Source: Polynucleobacter sp. AP-Melu-500A-A1 (GTDB taxonomy: Bacteria > Pseudomonadota > Gammaproteobacteria > Burkholderiales > Burkholderiaceae). Taken from it: DNA of 64,000 nucleotides. The first letter of the stretch is position 1; each line of letters opens with the position of its first letter. A model generated the notes under the pieces. That model ran no database searches, was not told where the DNA came from, and was given only the letters and a program-made list of their open reading frames with translations. Of the stretch, positions 26,706 to 48,821 are shown piece after piece. The translations under genes and the position numbers were made by a program. The DNA lies in contig NZ_JACVOZ010000005.1 of the NCBI RefSeq assembly GCF_018882125.1, forward strand, positions 1 through 64,000, given 5' to 3'.

Positions 26706-29326
26706 TTGCTAGCCACCCAATCTTTAACGCCAGCTAGTGCGGCGTTAATCTTGCTTGGGTCATTACCACCAGCCATTGCCATTTCAGGCTTACCGCCACC
26801 CTTACCACCAACTTGTTGCGCAACAAAGTTCACTAAATCCCCGGCCTTGACTTTAGCAATTGAGTCAGCGGTAACGCCAGCAATCAAGCTCACCTTATCG
26901 CCCTGTACAGAAGCCAAGACAATTGCAGCAGTCTTTAATTTGGTTTTAAGTGCGTCCATGGTTTCCCGTAAAACTTGTGCATCTGCACCGTCTAAGCGAA
27001 CTGCAAGAACCTTTAATCCATCGACGTCGATTGCTTGACTCGCTAACTCATCGCCCTGGCTTGCAGCCAATTTCGAGTTGGCTTTTTCTAATTCACGCTC
27101 CGCCTGACGCAATGCATCTTGCAGCTGAGTAACACGATTAACCAAGTCCCCTGGATGGGTTTTGAGAATCGTTGCCGCCTCATTCACTCTATCTTCCAAG
27201 CCCTGTAAAAATTGCAGGGCGTTATAACCAGTAATGGCTTCCACGCGACGAATACCAGCAGCTACACCACTTTCAGAAATAATCTTCAAGCTACCAATGT
27301 CGCCAGTCCGCGCTACGTGGGTACCGCCACACAATTCCTTAGAGCTACCAATCTCGAGAACGCGCACCTCATCGCCATATTTCTCACCGAAGAGCATCAT
27401 GGCGCCAGTCTTTTGTGCATCCTCTAAAGACATGACCTTACCTGAAGTAGCGCTGTTTTCTAAAATTTCACGATTCACAATATCTTCTATACGGCGAATC
27501 TGTCCTGCTGTCACGGGTGCATTGTGTGTAAAGTCAAAACGGGTTTTGCCAGCATCAACTAAAGATCCCTTTTGCTGCACATGATCACCTAAGACCTCAC
27601 GGAGAGCCTTATGCAAAATATGGGTTGCGCTGTGATTGCGCATGATATCGATCCGCTGGGAACTATCCACCAGGGCATTTAATGCATCACCCACTTTAAT
27701 TTCACCTTCAAGCACTTCACCTTGGTGTCCAAAGACATCTGCCTGAATCTTGAAAGTATCATCCACACCAAAGCGCACTGTTTCATTACGCAGTTCACCC
27801 TTATCGCCGACCTGCCCGCCAGACTCAGCATAGAAAGGGGTGTTATCTAAGACGATCACTGCCGCATCACCTGCTTTCACAGACTGCACTTGCGTACCAT
27901 CTACATACAGAGCAGTCACTTTTGCACCCTCGTGCTTCAAGGTGTCATAACCATGAAACTGGGTAGGTTTGCCTTTGTATTCCAAGCCTTGAGCTACTTT
28001 AAATTTACCAGCAGCACGTGCTTGATCCCGCTGCTTTTGCATAGCTACTTCAAAACCTTCTGCATCTACAGTAACGCCACGCTCACGACAAACGTCAGCC
28101 GTTAAATCCAATGGGAACCCAAAAGTATCATGCAAGCGGAAAGCAGTGTCACCATCAACCACTTTTGCACCACCGGCTAAAGCGCCTTCTAAAATCTCCA
28201 TACCATTGGCGATCGTTTGGAAGAAGCGCTCTTCTTCTTGCTTGAGTACATCACTTACTTTGTCTTGTGCTGCACGTAACTCTGGATACGCATCACCCAT
28301 TTCTTTTACAAGTGCAGGAACCAATTGATAGAAGAACGGTTTGCGTGCACCCAATTTATAACCATGACGAATTGCACGACGAGCAATGCGACGCAAGACA
28401 TAACCGCGCCCTGCATTACCAGGAATCACTCCATCAACCACTACAAAACTGCAGGCACGAATATGGTCTGAAATCACTTTGAGTGATGGACTTTGCGCAT
28501 CACAGTTCTCGCCACCAGCTTGATCTACAGCATCTTTGGCAGCTTTTAATAAATTGACGAAGAGATCGATTTCATAATTGGAATGGACGTGTTGCAAGAC
28601 TGCTGCGATACGCTCTAGACCCATACCAGTATCTACGCTTGGCTTTGGCAGCGGATGCATATTGCCTGCTTCATCGCGGTTGAACTGCATGAAAACGTTA
28701 TTCCAAATTTCAATGAAGCGATCGCCATCTTCATCTGGACTTCCTGGAGGACCACCGGGAATGTGTTCACCATGGTCATAAAAAATTTCGGTGCAGGGAC
28801 CACAAGGCCCCGTATCGCCCATCATCCAGAAATTATCGGAGGCATAACGCGCACCCTTGTTATCACCAATACGAATAATGCGATCGGCAGGTACGCCTAT
28901 TTGTTTATTCCAAATCTCATATGCTTCGTCATCTTCTGCATAGATCGTGACTAAGAGTTTCTCTTTGGGTAACTTGAAAACCTGGGTCAGCAAATCCCAA
29001 GCAAATTGGATGGCATCCCGCTTGAAATAATCACCAAAAGAAAAATTACCCAACATTTCAAAAAAAGTATGGTGACGGGCGGTATAGCCTACGTTATCCA
29101 AGTCATTGTGTTTTCCACCTGCTCGAATACACTTTTGAGCGCTCGTGGCCCGGTTATAGGCTCGCTTGTCAAAACCCAAAAATACGTCTTTGAACTGATT
29201 CATGCCCGCATTCGTAAAGAGCAGGGTTGGATCATCGCCTGGCACTACGGGGCTAGAAGGGACGATTTGGTGGCCTTTTTGGGCAAAGAAGTCCAGGTAT
29301 GCCTGGCGAATTTGGGAGACTTTCAT
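26702..29326 (-). CDS. alaS: Alanyl-tRNA synthetase
   Basis: This 874-residue class II synthetase charges tRNA-Ala. The aminoacylation core opens the protein ([25 protein letters not shown]). The editing domain follows, with zinc-site residues in [11 protein letters not shown] and CGGTHV. The C-terminal DHHA1/C-Ala part includes [14 protein letters not shown]. The ATG at 29326 has no ribosome binding site; a GATAAT hexamer ends seven bases before it. It is followed by the overlapping tusA-like gene and is divergent from tctBA. Confidence 0.97.
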
Positions 29327-29333
29327 AGTAATA

Positions 29334-29374
29334 ATTATCGCATTGGCACTTGTCTAGGGCAAACCCTAGACAAG
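29334..29374 (-). promoter_or_regulatory. alaS promoter overlapped by an 11-bp perfect palindrome
   Basis: On the minus strand, TTGCCC (29362-29357) and GATAAT (29339-29334) are 17 bases apart, with TGC just before the -10 box (an extended -10). A perfect inverted repeat, CTTGTCTAGGG and CCCTAGACAAG with a 4-base loop (29349-29374), is centred over the -35 box. There is no T-run, so an operator is more likely than a terminator. E. coli AlaRS is known to bind a palindrome at its own promoter, which makes autoregulation a reasonable hypothesis here. Confidence 0.6.
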
Positions 29375-29451
29375 ATACCCCTATCGTGGCTTACAATCGC
29401 ACAACACCAATAAATAGATCGGCAATGATGTCGATAAATTAGGAGCAAAAC

Positions 29452-29913
29452 TTGAAAATTCGTAACCAACGGGATTTTGGGGCTGGAATCATGTATATGG
29501 TTATCGGCCTCTTCTTCACCTTCATTGCTACTCAATATCAATATGGCACAGCAGCCAAGATGGGACCTGGTTATTTCCCTTTCTGGCTAGGCATTTTGAT
29601 GACCCTTCTAGGTCTATTGGTTTTTGTGAAATCCTTTAGTGCTAAAGCTGCGATTGAATCGATTCCCAAATTCAACTGGCGCATTATTGTCCAGATTACT
29701 GGCGCTGTTGTGCTCTATGGTCTGCTCCTTCCTAGAATGGGCTTTTTAGTTGCGGTAGTGGTTTTGGTATTTGTTTCTGCAAGCGCTAGCAAGGAATTTA
29801 CTTGGAAGGGCACCGCAATTAATGCTGCATTCTTAGTAACCTTTACTTATTCCGTGTTTGTACTGGGCTTAAAGCTCCAGTTCCCACTCTTGCCAGTCTT
29901 CTTACAACAATAA
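29452..29913 (+). CDS. tctB: Tripartite tricarboxylate transporter small membrane subunit TctB
   Basis: The 153-residue protein has four hydrophobic segments (near residues 12-28, 39-57, 80-98 and 122-145) and the early block MGPGYFPFWLGILM typical of TctB. With TctA it forms the inner-membrane part of a solute-receptor-dependent importer of tricarboxylates or similar acids. The start is a TTG at 29452 with AGGAG well placed upstream; the next Met (residue 11) lies within the first hydrophobic part. tctA follows after 19 bases. Confidence 0.92.
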   Translation: MKIRNQRDFGAGIMYMVIGLFFTFIATQYQYGTAAKMGPGYFPFWLGILMTLLGLLVFVKSFSAKAAIESIPKFNWRIIVQITGAVVLYGLLLPRMGFLVAVVVLVFVSASASKEFTWKGTAINAAFLVTFTYSVFVLGLKLQFPLLPVFLQQ

Positions 29914-29932: not shown

Positions 29933-31438
29933 ATGGACTTATTTGCTAATTTATCCCTCGGCTTCGAGACTGCATTTACCTTACAAAACCTCCTGTACTG
30001 CCTCATCGGCTGTGTCTTGGGAACCTTGATTGGTGTTTTACCTGGCCTTGGCCCAATTGCAACCATCGCGATGCTATTGCCAGCAACGTATGCCTTGCCT
30101 CCAATTGCTGCATTGATCATGTTGGCCGGTATTTATTACGGCTCCCAATACGGCGGTTCTACAACAGCAATTTTGCTCAACATCCCAGGGGAGACGTCCT
30201 CGGTGGTGACGGCGATTGACGGATACCAAATGGCCAGAAATGGTCGAGCGGGTGTTGCCTTATTCACTGCCGGTATGGGCTCCTTCTTTGCTGGTTGCGT
30301 AGCAACTTTGGTATTGGCTGCTTTTGCTGCCCCACTCTCACAACTCGCCTTTAAGTTTGGTCCTGCGGAATACTTCTCGCTGATGGTCTTAGGTTTAATC
30401 GGTGCCGTGGTATTGGCATCGGGCTCTTTGATCAAAGCGATTGGCATGATCATCTTAGGTCTCTTGATGGGCTTGATTGGTACCGACGTGAACTCTGGTG
30501 TTTCTCGCTATGCGTTTGATATTCCAGAACTCAGTGATGGTATCGGCTTCGTTGCAGTGGCCATGGGTGTTTTCGGCTTCGCAGAAATCATGGGTAATTT
30601 GGAAAAAACTGGTGACGATGAGGGCTTCCTCAACAAACTGACCACCATGGTTCCCACTAAGCAAGATATCAAGCGCATGATTCCTTCTATTTTGCGCGGT
30701 ACAACGATTGGTTCGATTCTCGGTATCCTCCCAGGCGGCGGCGCTGCATTAGCTGCATTCGGCGCTTACTCTGTTGAGAAAAAATCTTCTAAGTACAGCC
30801 ATGAATTTGGTAAAGGTGCGATTGAAGGTGTTGCTGGTCCTGAGTCTGCAAATAATGCTGCAGCTCAAACCTCATTCATTCCATTGCTCACCTTAGGTAT
30901 CCCACCAAATGCTGTGATGGCCTTGATGGTTGGTGCGATGACTATTCATAACATCCAACCTGGTCCACAAGTAATGACCAGCAATCCAGCTTTGTTCTGG
31001 GGTCTGATCGCTTCCATGTGGATTGGTAATGTGATGTTGATTCTCTTGAACTTGCCACTGATTGGTATCTGGGTAAAGCTCTTGAAGATTCCTTATCGCT
31101 TCCTCTACCCAGCTATCTTGGTATTCTGCTGTATCGGTGTGTACACCGTAAATAACACGGTGTTCGATGTATACATCACCGCAGCTTTCGGCTTGATTGG
31201 TTATCTCTTCTTCAAACTCGGTTGCGAACCGCCTCCATTGCTCTTGGGCTTCGTACTAGGGCCAATGATGGAAGAGAACTTCCGCCGCGCCCTGCTCTTG
31301 TCACGCGGCGATTTTACGACCTTTGTTACACGCCCACTCTCTTTAGGATTGCTGATTGCAGCAGCCCTCTTGGTTGTGATCGTGGCTTTGCCAGCGGTTA
31401 AGAAAACCCGTGAAGAGGCGTTTACCGAAGAGGATTAA
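29933..31438 (+). CDS. tctA: Tripartite tricarboxylate transporter large membrane subunit TctA
   Basis: This 501-residue protein with about a dozen membrane segments carries the two family repeats GTLIGVLPGLGPIATIA (N-terminal half) and GSILGILPGGGAALAAFG (C-terminal half), plus GGSTTAILLNIPGE. It is the sodium- or proton-coupled transport channel. The periplasmic solute receptor TctC is not encoded in this window, so the substrate cannot be named. A strong hairpin terminator follows the gene. Confidence 0.95.
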   Translation: MDLFANLSLGFETAFTLQNLLYCLIGCVLGTLIGVLPGLGPIATIAMLLPATYALPPIAALIMLAGIYYGSQYGGSTTAILLNIPGETSSVVTAIDGYQMARNGRAGVALFTAGMGSFFAGCVATLVLAAFAAPLSQLAFKFGPAEYFSLMVLGLIGAVVLASGSLIKAIGMIILGLLMGLIGTDVNSGVSRYAFDIPELSDGIGFVAVAMGVFGFAEIMGNLEKTGDDEGFLNKLTTMVPTKQDIKRMIPSILRGTTIGSILGILPGGGAALAAFGAYSVEKKSSKYSHEFGKGAIEGVAGPESANNAAAQTSFIPLLTLGIPPNAVMALMVGAMTIHNIQPGPQVMTSNPALFWGLIASMWIGNVMLILLNLPLIGIWVKLLKIPYRFLYPAILVFCCIGVYTVNNTVFDVYITAAFGLIGYLFFKLGCEPPPLLLGFVLGPMMEENFRRALLLSRGDFTTFVTRPLSLGLLIAAALLVVIVALPAVKKTREEAFTEED

Positions 31439-31522: not shown

Positions 31523-33292
31523 ATGTCCCAAGATAGCAAATCCTCCAAAACAGTCGCTCCCACGACCGAGCCATCGAATTTTTTACGTCAGATCATTGAT
31601 CATGACTTAGCCAGTGCTGCATTTAATCAGCGCACGAATATGGCTGGGCAAGCTATTCCATCCATCATTACGCGCTTTCCACCTGAACCTAATGGATATC
31701 TACATATTGGTCATGCCAAAAGTATTTGTCTGAACTTTGGTTTGGCGGCAGATTACAACGAGCAAGCTGGTGGTGCTCGCTGCAATATGCGTTTAGACGA
31801 CACCAATCCCGTAAAAGAGGATGTTGAATACGCCGATAGTATTTTGGATGCGGTGAAGTGGCTGGGGTTTGACTGGGGCACACATCTCTATCACGCGAGT
31901 GACTATTTTGATCAACTCTATGCCTTTGCCGAAATTCTTATTGAAAACGGTAAGGCTTATGTGGATAGTCAAAGTGCAGATGACATTCATACCAATCGCG
32001 GTAACTTTGGTCAAGCGGGTATAAATAGCCCCTATCGTGATCGTAGTCCTGCAGAAAATCTTCAACTCTTTCGCGATATGCGCGATGGGAAATTTAAAGA
32101 TGGTGAACATGTTCTGCGTCTAAAGATTGATATGGCGCATCCTAATATCGTGATGCGTGATCCCGTGGTTTATCGTATTCGCCATACCGATCACCACCGA
32201 ACAGGCAATAAATGGTGCATCTATCCTTTATACGATTTCACCCATTGCATTTCAGACGCATTAGAAAATGTCTCTCACTCGATCTGTACGCTCGAGTTTG
32301 AAAATAATCGCCCGCTCTATGACTGGATTGTTAATTCTCTAAAAGAACTAGGTGTCTTTAAGGATCCAGTGCCTCGCCAATATGAATTCGCACGCCTTAA
32401 TCTGACTTACACCATCACTAGCAAGCGTAAGCTCTTGCAATTGGTTGAAGAAAAGCATGTTGAAGGCTGGGATGATCCCCGAATGCCAACGATTGTTGGC
32501 ATTCGTCGTCGCGGCTATACCCCTGAAAGCATCCGCCTGTTCTGCGAACGCATTGGCGTTTCTAAGGCAGATAGCTGGATTGATATGAGCACACTAGATC
32601 AGGCTTTGCGCGATGATTTAGAAGTGAGGGCACCTCGTGCTACTGCAGTTCTCAAACCCCTCAAGCTCATTGTTGACAATTTTGATGTGACAGCAAGCGA
32701 ACCTTGCTCTGCACCTCGCCATCCGCAGCATCCAGAATGGGGTAATCGGGAGTTTAATTTCACTAAAGAACTCTGGATTGAGGCGGATGATTTTATGCAA
32801 GAACCTGTCAAAGGTTTCTTCCGCCTGTACCCGCCAATCGGTGATCAGCCAGGCAGTCGCGTTCGCTTACGTCATGGCTTTGTTGTCGAGTGCACTGGCT
32901 TTGAGACTGATGCCAATGGCAATGTCACTCAAGTCAATGTCACCCATTTCCCAGACAGCAAGAGCGGTACGCCTGGCTCAAACAACTATAAAGTCAAAGG
33001 TAATATTCACTGGATTAGCGCTGCTGAGGCTATTCCTGCTCAAGTGCGCCTTTATGATCATCTCTTCATCGATCCACACCCAGATAGTGGCGATAAGAAT
33101 TTCTTAGATGCAATCAATGCCGACTCCAAGCAAACAATCTCAGCCTATCTAGAGCCCTGCATGAAAGATGTCAAAGCTGAAGATCGCTTTCAGTTTGAGC
33201 GGCACGGTTACTTTATTGCAGATCAGATAGATTCAACGCCAGGTAAACCCGTCTTTAATCGAACGGTTGGCCTTAAGGATTCTTGGAAATAG
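31523..33292 (+). CDS. glnS: Glutaminyl-tRNA synthetase
   Basis: The 589-residue class I synthetase charges tRNA-Gln directly. HIGH motif: PPEPNGYLHIGHAKS; KMSKS equivalent: ITSKRK in the run YTITSKRKLLQL; GlnS-specific blocks MRLDDTNP and WDDPRMPT. The C-terminal two-barrel anticodon-binding region follows. The ATG at 31523 is preferred over an upstream in-frame codon at 31475, which lies in the terminator. TACAAT (31511-31516) ends six bases before it and no ribosome binding site is visible. The last 20 bases overlap the convergent SDR gene. Confidence 0.97.
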   Translation: MSQDSKSSKTVAPTTEPSNFLRQIIDHDLASAAFNQRTNMAGQAIPSIITRFPPEPNGYLHIGHAKSICLNFGLAADYNEQAGGARCNMRLDDTNPVKEDVEYADSILDAVKWLGFDWGTHLYHASDYFDQLYAFAEILIENGKAYVDSQSADDIHTNRGNFGQAGINSPYRDRSPAENLQLFRDMRDGKFKDGEHVLRLKIDMAHPNIVMRDPVVYRIRHTDHHRTGNKWCIYPLYDFTHCISDALENVSHSICTLEFENNRPLYDWIVNSLKELGVFKDPVPRQYEFARLNLTYTITSKRKLLQLVEEKHVEGWDDPRMPTIVGIRRRGYTPESIRLFCERIGVSKADSWIDMSTLDQALRDDLEVRAPRATAVLKPLKLIVDNFDVTASEPCSAPRHPQHPEWGNREFNFTKELWIEADDFMQEPVKGFFRLYPPIGDQPGSRVRLRHGFVVECTGFETDANGNVTQVNVTHFPDSKSGTPGSNNYKVKGNIHWISAAEAIPAQVRLYDHLFIDPHPDSGDKNFLDAINADSKQTISAYLEPCMKDVKAEDRFQFERHGYFIADQIDSTPGKPVFNRTVGLKDSWK

Positions 33293-48752: not shown

Positions 48753-48780
48753 GAAATTGATATAGATACTCAATATTAGA

Positions 48781-48804
48781 AAAGCCACCCTAGGGTGGCT
48801 TTTC
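48781..48804. terminator. Bidirectional terminator between dut and the Hc1-like gene
   Basis: AAAAGCCACCC and GGGTGGCTTTT form a perfect 24-base palindrome, extended outward by TTAGA/TCTAA with one bulge. It gives T-rich ends on both strands and serves the convergent dut and Hc1-like genes. Confidence 0.88.
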
Positions 48805-48821
48805 TAATAAGCAAGTATTAC

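Follow-up and report, generated by a model that had tools for sequence, protein, structure and literature searches.

The box GGTGTTCGCACC proposed for TdiR and the TodT/StyR box ATAAACN4GTTTAT belong to response regulators of the NarL/FixJ family (PMC5874301, available in part). The AGGG-W4-CCCT site described here resembles these boxes in being a short dyad, whereas its bases differ from theirs as given in the available part of that paper, and the targets of those systems are hydrocarbon pathways. In acetate utilisation, the LuxR-type regulator CrbR acts through the ACTU motif, which at acs is an imperfect inverted repeat at -52 to -36 and is needed for activation, and its predicted targets include fumarase (PMC5715377, in the available part). 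Like the present site, the ACTU repeat lies just upstream of a sigma-70 promoter. However, the ACTU sequences in the available part of that paper (PMC5715377), for example TACGACTAAAGTCTAAA, do not contain AGGG..CCCT, and CrbR was rejected as the regulator. RpuR was also rejected, its operator being a direct repeat according to the available part of PMC9100948. The tctCBA genes of Salmonella and Pseudomonas are controlled by the two-component system TctDE, of which TctD is a member of the OmpR/PhoB subfamily (PMC4513871, available in part). Our proposal likewise concerns regulation of a tripartite tricarboxylate transporter, but the candidate regulator is of the NarL/FixJ type, unlike TctD. 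In E. coli, the palindrome bound by alanyl-tRNA synthetase (AlaRS) flanks the alaS transcription start (PMC10485164, available in part). The E. coli gene and the present locus share a palindrome at the alaS promoter, whereas here it lies at the -35 box, is tied to tct and occurs at other promoters as well.

Members of the genus Polynucleobacter rank with the most abundant bacteria of fresh water and live on small organic acids and on products of photodegradation. A literature search that covered few subscription papers yielded no described regulator of organic-acid uptake in this genus, and within the same scope the motif letters and the terms for Polynucleobacter regulons and response regulators gave nothing describing the site. 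A literal search for GGGTAAACCC likewise gave nothing apparently about such a regulator in titles and abstract openings. Uncharacterised operators for known kinds of regulator are common, and the present site would be one of them. With a predicted operator, candidate targets and five candidate regulators of one family, the question becomes directly testable, and the locus would show how the site of a transporter activator and the promoter of a housekeeping tRNA synthetase can share bases.

The window, the whole stretch of 64,000 nucleotides that was analysed, contains alaS and tctBA on opposite strands (Table 1). The product of the minus-strand gene is presumably alanyl-tRNA synthetase, recognised by its sequence.

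Table 1. Positions of the palindrome, the promoter elements and the flanking genes in the window.
Feature	Position	Strand	Basis or remark
Perfect inverted repeat CTTGTCTAGGG-CAAA-CCCTAGACAAG	29349..29374	.	11-bp arms, 4-nt loop
Conserved 12-bp predicted operator core AGGGCAAACCCT (consensus AGGGNAAACCCT)	29356..29367	+	genus gap comparison
tctBA -10 box TACAAT	29392..29397	+	24 bp after core
alaS -35 TTGCCC, within core	29357..29362	-	promoter scan
alaS -10 GATAAT	29334..29339	-	promoter scan; 7 bp from ATG
alaS, alanyl-tRNA synthetase, 874 aa	26702..29326	-	named from sequence
tctB, small membrane subunit of tripartite tricarboxylate transporter	29452..29913	+	Pfam PF07331, E 4e-20
tctA, large membrane subunit of tripartite tricarboxylate transporter	29933..31438	+	Pfam PF01970, E 8e-160

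The original prediction of a perfect palindrome with 11-bp arms that spans the alaS -35 box was borne out by the sequence and by a promoter scan. The sole sigma-70-like promoter in 29250-29500 was that of alaS (TTGCCC, 17 bp, GATAAT), and its -35 box falls in the middle of the palindrome. No plus-strand tct promoter with a -35 box of its own was found in the same scan. A tctBA promoter had been placed at TTGGCA (29344) and TAGACA (29367); this pair is not the conserved one, and 143 of the 144 genus sequences compared have TACAAT at a distance of 40-160 bp to the ATG of alaS. On the alaS side, TTGCCC occurred 17 bp from the -10 box in 109 of the 144 sequences, and in 135 the distance between ATTAT (in the plus-strand reading) and the ATG was 7 bp. 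Because 7 bp separate the -10 box from the ATG, alaS is probably transcribed as a leaderless mRNA here and in most of the genus, with a predicted start at about 29327; no Shine-Dalgarno sequence for alaS is visible in the window. The centre of the palindrome is at 29361.5, and that of the core is at about -42.5 relative to the predicted tct start.

The length of the arms was compared with chance in 40 first-order Markov simulations of the 64-kb window, in which inverted repeats with arms of at least 11 bp and a loop of at most 10 nt were counted. The simulated windows contained 0.225 such repeats on average, and eight of the 40 contained at least one. The actual window has six inverted repeats with arms of at least 10 bp; another repeat with 11-bp arms and a 4-nt loop lies at 32480, and three more have longer arms. 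By arm length alone, the palindrome is within chance expectation. Among 81 distinct genus sequences, the outer-arm pairs matched slightly more often than expected from the columns (for example, 0.64 versus 0.55 and 0.60 versus 0.44). Because this covariation barely exceeds the expectation, no function is claimed for the long arms, and the outer symmetrical bases appear to be largely lineage-specific. The case that the palindrome matters rests on conservation.

To assess this conservation, 151 genus genomes were searched for tctB, and matches were obtained in 146. A weak match (G142) was left out, 145 tctB places were taken, and one of them (L185), which lies at a contig end without an alaS start, was dropped, leaving 144 alaS-tctB gaps. 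The core AGGGNAAACCCT had no mismatch in 78 gaps, one in 45, two in 11 and more than two in the remaining ten, which were excluded from the spacing counts. A search for the palindrome in relatives, suggested earlier, thus succeeded for the 12-bp core (at most two mismatches in 134 of 144) but not for the full 11-bp arms, which are perfect in only two of the 134 sites, namely in the genome of the window and one other. The distance from the core to TACAAT was 24 bp in 114 of the 134 gaps, 25 bp in 11, 35 bp in six and 36 bp in three. The distance to the alaS ATG was 29-31 bp in 124 gaps, 41 bp in one and 70-84 bp in nine. In these nine wide gaps the core is still located 25 bp before TACAAT, and the alaS -10-like ATTAT remains beside the ATG, as in all 144 gaps. 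Because the core keeps its distance to tct where alaS is far away, we regard it as an element of the tct promoter; the alaS promoter overlaps it, as judged from the TTGCCC -35 box falling inside the dyad.

The loose base N of the core is C in 112 of the 124 tct sites that overlap the alaS -35 box, where the opposite strand spells TTGCCC, and A or T in all 19 sites examined upstream of a GNAT acetyltransferase gene (see below). Such a pattern would be expected if C were kept for the sake of the alaS TTGCCC. The ten tct sites without this overlap have G in six cases and C in four, and the explanation by alaS fits in part and is not exclusive, since these four sites also have C.

Beyond the genus, alaS was beside tctB in none of 15 family loci (L306-L320), and the core was not seen by eye upstream of tctB in five loci of other genera of the family (L310, L312, L313, L315 and L316). 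Four of these loci (L310, L312, L313 and L315) have a direct repeat, TGAAAGGTAGCTGAAAGG, upstream of tctB. Within the genus, the DNA added to six of the gaps in which the alaS and tct promoters are apart (L197, L198, L199, L201, L203 and L206) holds TGTGATTTAATCACA or a similar sequence, which we take to resemble a CRP/FNR-type site.

Copies of the dyad were sought at other places with the core plus an A or T on either side (14 bases), first in 10 and then in 61 genus genomes; the same 14 letters reversed served as the control. The 61 genomes contained 100 exact places, compared with 67 for the reversed control. Because this excess is only modest, the case for the motif rests on location. Together, the two scans gave 110 distinct exact places (25 in the 10 genomes and 100 in the 61 genomes, 15 being shared). 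Seventeen of these were assigned to tct by their coordinates; the loci of the remaining 93 were read, and 13 of them were also tct, leaving 80 non-tct places. Of the 80, 71 lie outside ORFs of at least 150 aa, versus three of the 30 control loci that were read out of the 67. In 19 of these 30 control loci the ORF has the same length, 156 aa, so that they seem to represent a single conserved coding site and not independent cases.

These places formed recurring groups. Twenty-four lie upstream of a formate-dehydrogenase-like gene with NuoE- and NuoF-like domains (PF01257 and PF01512; all NCBIfam scores under the cut-off), and both orientations of the centre occur there. Fourteen lie upstream of a GNAT acetyltransferase gene and six upstream of tctC (PF03401 confirmed on L248 and on the copy in the genome of the window). 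Fewer places precede glutathione peroxidase (PF00255, checked on L325) and other solute-binding protein genes, and a few precede bchF (PF07284) and bchH (best NCBIfam matches, a fragment under the cut-off). Some further downstream genes are presumably bchC- and bchO-like, as recognised by sequence. The motif is found upstream of bchC-like, bchF and bchH genes in L247, L259, L346, L349 and L276; in all of these except L276 an AAGGGT half-site follows close downstream of it. A class I fumarase gene (PF05681) is preceded by two imperfect tandem copies, each with three mismatches over 16 bases; its divergent neighbour was recognised by sequence as acetyl-CoA-synthetase-like. L242 and most of the other 23 formate-dehydrogenase-like loci, L326 excepted, share a further conserved inverted repeat, CCTTGAGCGCCGTCAAGG or nearly so, about 10-25 bp past the motif, perhaps a terminator or an additional operator.

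In the genome of the window itself, AGGGWWWWCCCT occurs at five places, versus two for the reversed pattern. Four of them are upstream of the GNAT gene, tctC, the formate-dehydrogenase-like gene and a small ORF adjoining an SDR-like gene, and the fifth is in the leader of one further ORF. At position 1500 of L457 (C4:386146 of the same genome), a perfect AGGGTATACCCT follows TATCAT and is itself followed, 28 bp on, by a start codon. This placement would suit repression, not activation.

The GNAT promoters were then compared in more genomes. The gene was matched in 23 of 30 genomes, of which three with weak matches (G011, G120 and G062) were not read; among the 20 loci tried, 19 were readable and that of G102, in which the gene is broken, was not. 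The core with at most one mismatch was present upstream in all 19 loci (exact in 12, one mismatch in seven). The GNAT gene is broken in G116 (L439/L449), G105 (L443/L450) and G102 (L445/L451/L455), and in the two of these genomes that were readable the core persists with at most one mismatch. Between AGGG and CCCT the centres AAAA, TAAA, TTTA, TATA and TTAA all occur, and one end base is altered in two of the 19 sites. At the formate-dehydrogenase-like promoter, genomes differ in whether the centre reads TAAA or TTTA, and the neighbours are unchanged. Such flips of an AAA/TTT centre between genomes are as expected of a dyad, and the arrangement is 5-2-5, AGGGT-WW-ACCCT (AGGG-W4-CCCT). The operator-like appearance noted in the original prediction was thereby reinforced, as the core is conserved in place across the genus, recurs upstream of other genes and has a centre that flips.

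The distance from the GNAT core to a TANNNT box was 21 bp in 13 of the 19 loci, 22 bp in one and 32-33 bp in four; one locus (L442) had no such box. The definition of TANNNT is loose, and several such boxes can occur at one GNAT locus; for example, L437 and L440, which are among the four with a spacing of 32-33 bp, also carry TATTTT at 20 bp. Further GNAT genomes showed spacings of 20-21 and 32-33 bp. Relative to the predicted starts, the tct core is centred at about -42 and the GNAT core at about -39. The two spacing classes differ at both promoters by about 11 bp, one helical turn, so that the helical phase between the dyad and the -10 box is preserved at tct (134 sites) and at GNAT (18 of 19 loci). 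Eight genomes with a GNAT spacing of 32-33 bp (G005, G006, G009, G029, G031, G040, G084 and G089) have a tct spacing of 35-37 bp; three of these (G029, G031 and G084) have a degenerate tct core with more than two mismatches. In G001, G036 and G049 the shift was seen at tct only.

The layout of an activator is suggested because one helix face is kept and the scan contained no -35 box belonging to tct, and the palindrome is probably a real switch that binds a protein. From the observed conservation, spacing, recurrence and placement outside long ORFs, we infer protein binding, activation and a hindrance of alaS in the following way. The 12-bp dyad AGGGT-WW-ACCCT would be the operator of a transcription activator which, centred near -42, would replace the missing tct -35 box. 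The bound activator would contact RNA polymerase at the TACAAT -10 box and switch on tctBA. The same regulator would be common to tctC, the GNAT protein and the formate-dehydrogenase-like gene, and in some genomes also to bacteriochlorophyll genes, glutathione peroxidase and other solute-binding proteins. Occupancy of the dyad would hinder RNA polymerase at alaS, except in the nine genomes in which the promoters are apart. If this is true, one site between alaS and tctBA would raise transporter synthesis while slowing AlaRS synthesis. That the conserved core is an activator operator for tctBA and a further set of genes in the genus appears likely to us.

Autoregulation of alaS in the E. coli style, as proposed in the original prediction, would have AlaRS bind the palindrome and repress alaS when alanine is plentiful. 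Binding of AlaRS to its operator in E. coli is tighter with alanine, and here the dyad covers the alaS -35 box. Repression of the enzyme's own gene through a palindrome is documented in E. coli (PMC10485164, available in part), but in the present genus the dyad follows the tct -10 box and not alaS in nine of 134 genomes, where alaS is 70-84 bp away; it also occurs at the GNAT, tctC and other unrelated promoters without alaS, and it surrounds the -35 box instead of flanking the predicted alaS start. Since the core appears to be tied to tct and is present at unrelated promoters, this reading was rejected and is very improbable. A chance symmetry of back-to-back sigma-70 promoter parts, involving no regulator, would agree with the arms, because about one window in five should hold perfect 11-bp arms and the outer pairs match barely above the prediction from column composition. 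It would not account for the persistence of the core where alaS is distant or, at other promoters, absent, nor for AGGG and CCCT both being kept at GNAT sites whose centres are themselves palindromic (TATA and TTAA). This explanation, rejected because the core is kept independently of alaS, has a very slight probability. The arms would also be able to pair in RNA, as in a terminator, an attenuator or another structured leader; however, the palindrome lies upstream of both predicted start sites, little covariation is found in the outer pairs, a terminator scan of 29250-29500 did not report it, and Rfam gave no match up to E 1 in 29200-29600. With both searches empty for the palindrome, a terminator or RNA element was rejected, and its probability is practically negligible.

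A repressor shared by alaS and tctBA would block the -35 regions of both until an inducer, for example an organic acid, frees them. The dyad does overlap the alaS -35 box and occupies the position of a tct -35 box, some copies lie near a start codon (L457 and L245), and the site of the formate-dehydrogenase-like gene, 138-208 bp upstream of the start codon, counts against an activator. On the other hand, two distances to the -10 box one helical turn apart would be needed by an activator and not by a repressor that blocks, and the scan shows no plus-strand tct promoter with its own -35 box. The earlier suggestion of a shared repressor therefore holds in part: a shared regulator is supported by the recurrence of the core at other promoters, while its being a repressor is improbable.

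The search for the regulator covered a single protein family, that with the GerE domain, chosen from the operator geometry. A short dyad with two bases between the half-sites, situated near a promoter, agrees with what is expected of a NarL/FixJ operator, and this class is suggested because the geometry resembles that of the TdiR and TodT boxes. The chance that the activator is a NarL/FixJ-type response regulator is close to even, on the lower side. The genome of the window encodes five GerE-domain regulators, and their orthologs were checked in 10 genomes, in which 30 of 33 GerE matches, those with loci, were classified. Alone among the five, a regulator linked to folD had a recognisable ortholog in all 10 genomes; in G102, which is outside the 61-genome motif scan, it was the only GerE protein found. 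It scored 227 bits, below the curated FixJ cut-off of 255 (NCBIfam NF006900), and is called only FixJ-like because this cut-off was not reached. The gene order is an 849-aa kinase, the FixJ-like regulator and folD. The kinase has PAS domains and a FixL-like transmitter, its N-terminus was judged by eye to be membrane-bound, and it presumably resembles DctS of the dicarboxylate system.

G017 is a reduced genome in which an in-frame loss has removed the recognition-helix stretch of the FixJ-like regulator (L414), and it has no exact 14-base site and no GNAT match. Its tct core (L098) has one mismatch, as in related genomes. The ortholog distribution and the pattern in G017 are suggestive of the folD-linked regulator. 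However, a second GerE protein (the L362 type) is present in nine of the 10 genomes, and G017 keeps the tct core; because of these two findings, less weight is given to the folD-linked regulator and to a genus-wide regulon. It is unlikely that the activator is the FixJ-like protein encoded beside folD with its kinase. A genus-wide AGGG-W4-CCCT regulon under a FixJ-like regulator and sensor kinase would comprise organic-acid uptake (tctBA and tctC), formate oxidation, the GNAT protein and, in phototrophs, bacteriochlorophyll synthesis, together with a reciprocal alaS/tctBA switch and, in eight genomes, an activator placed one turn upstream at two promoters; this full picture is tentative and rather doubtful.

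Elsewhere in the window, a loop-free perfect palindrome of 36 bp, TATTAGAAAAGCCACCCTAGGGTGGCTTTTCTAATA, lies at 48774-48809. Its 18-bp arms are the longest with a loop of at most 10 nt, and it is perhaps a bidirectional terminator.
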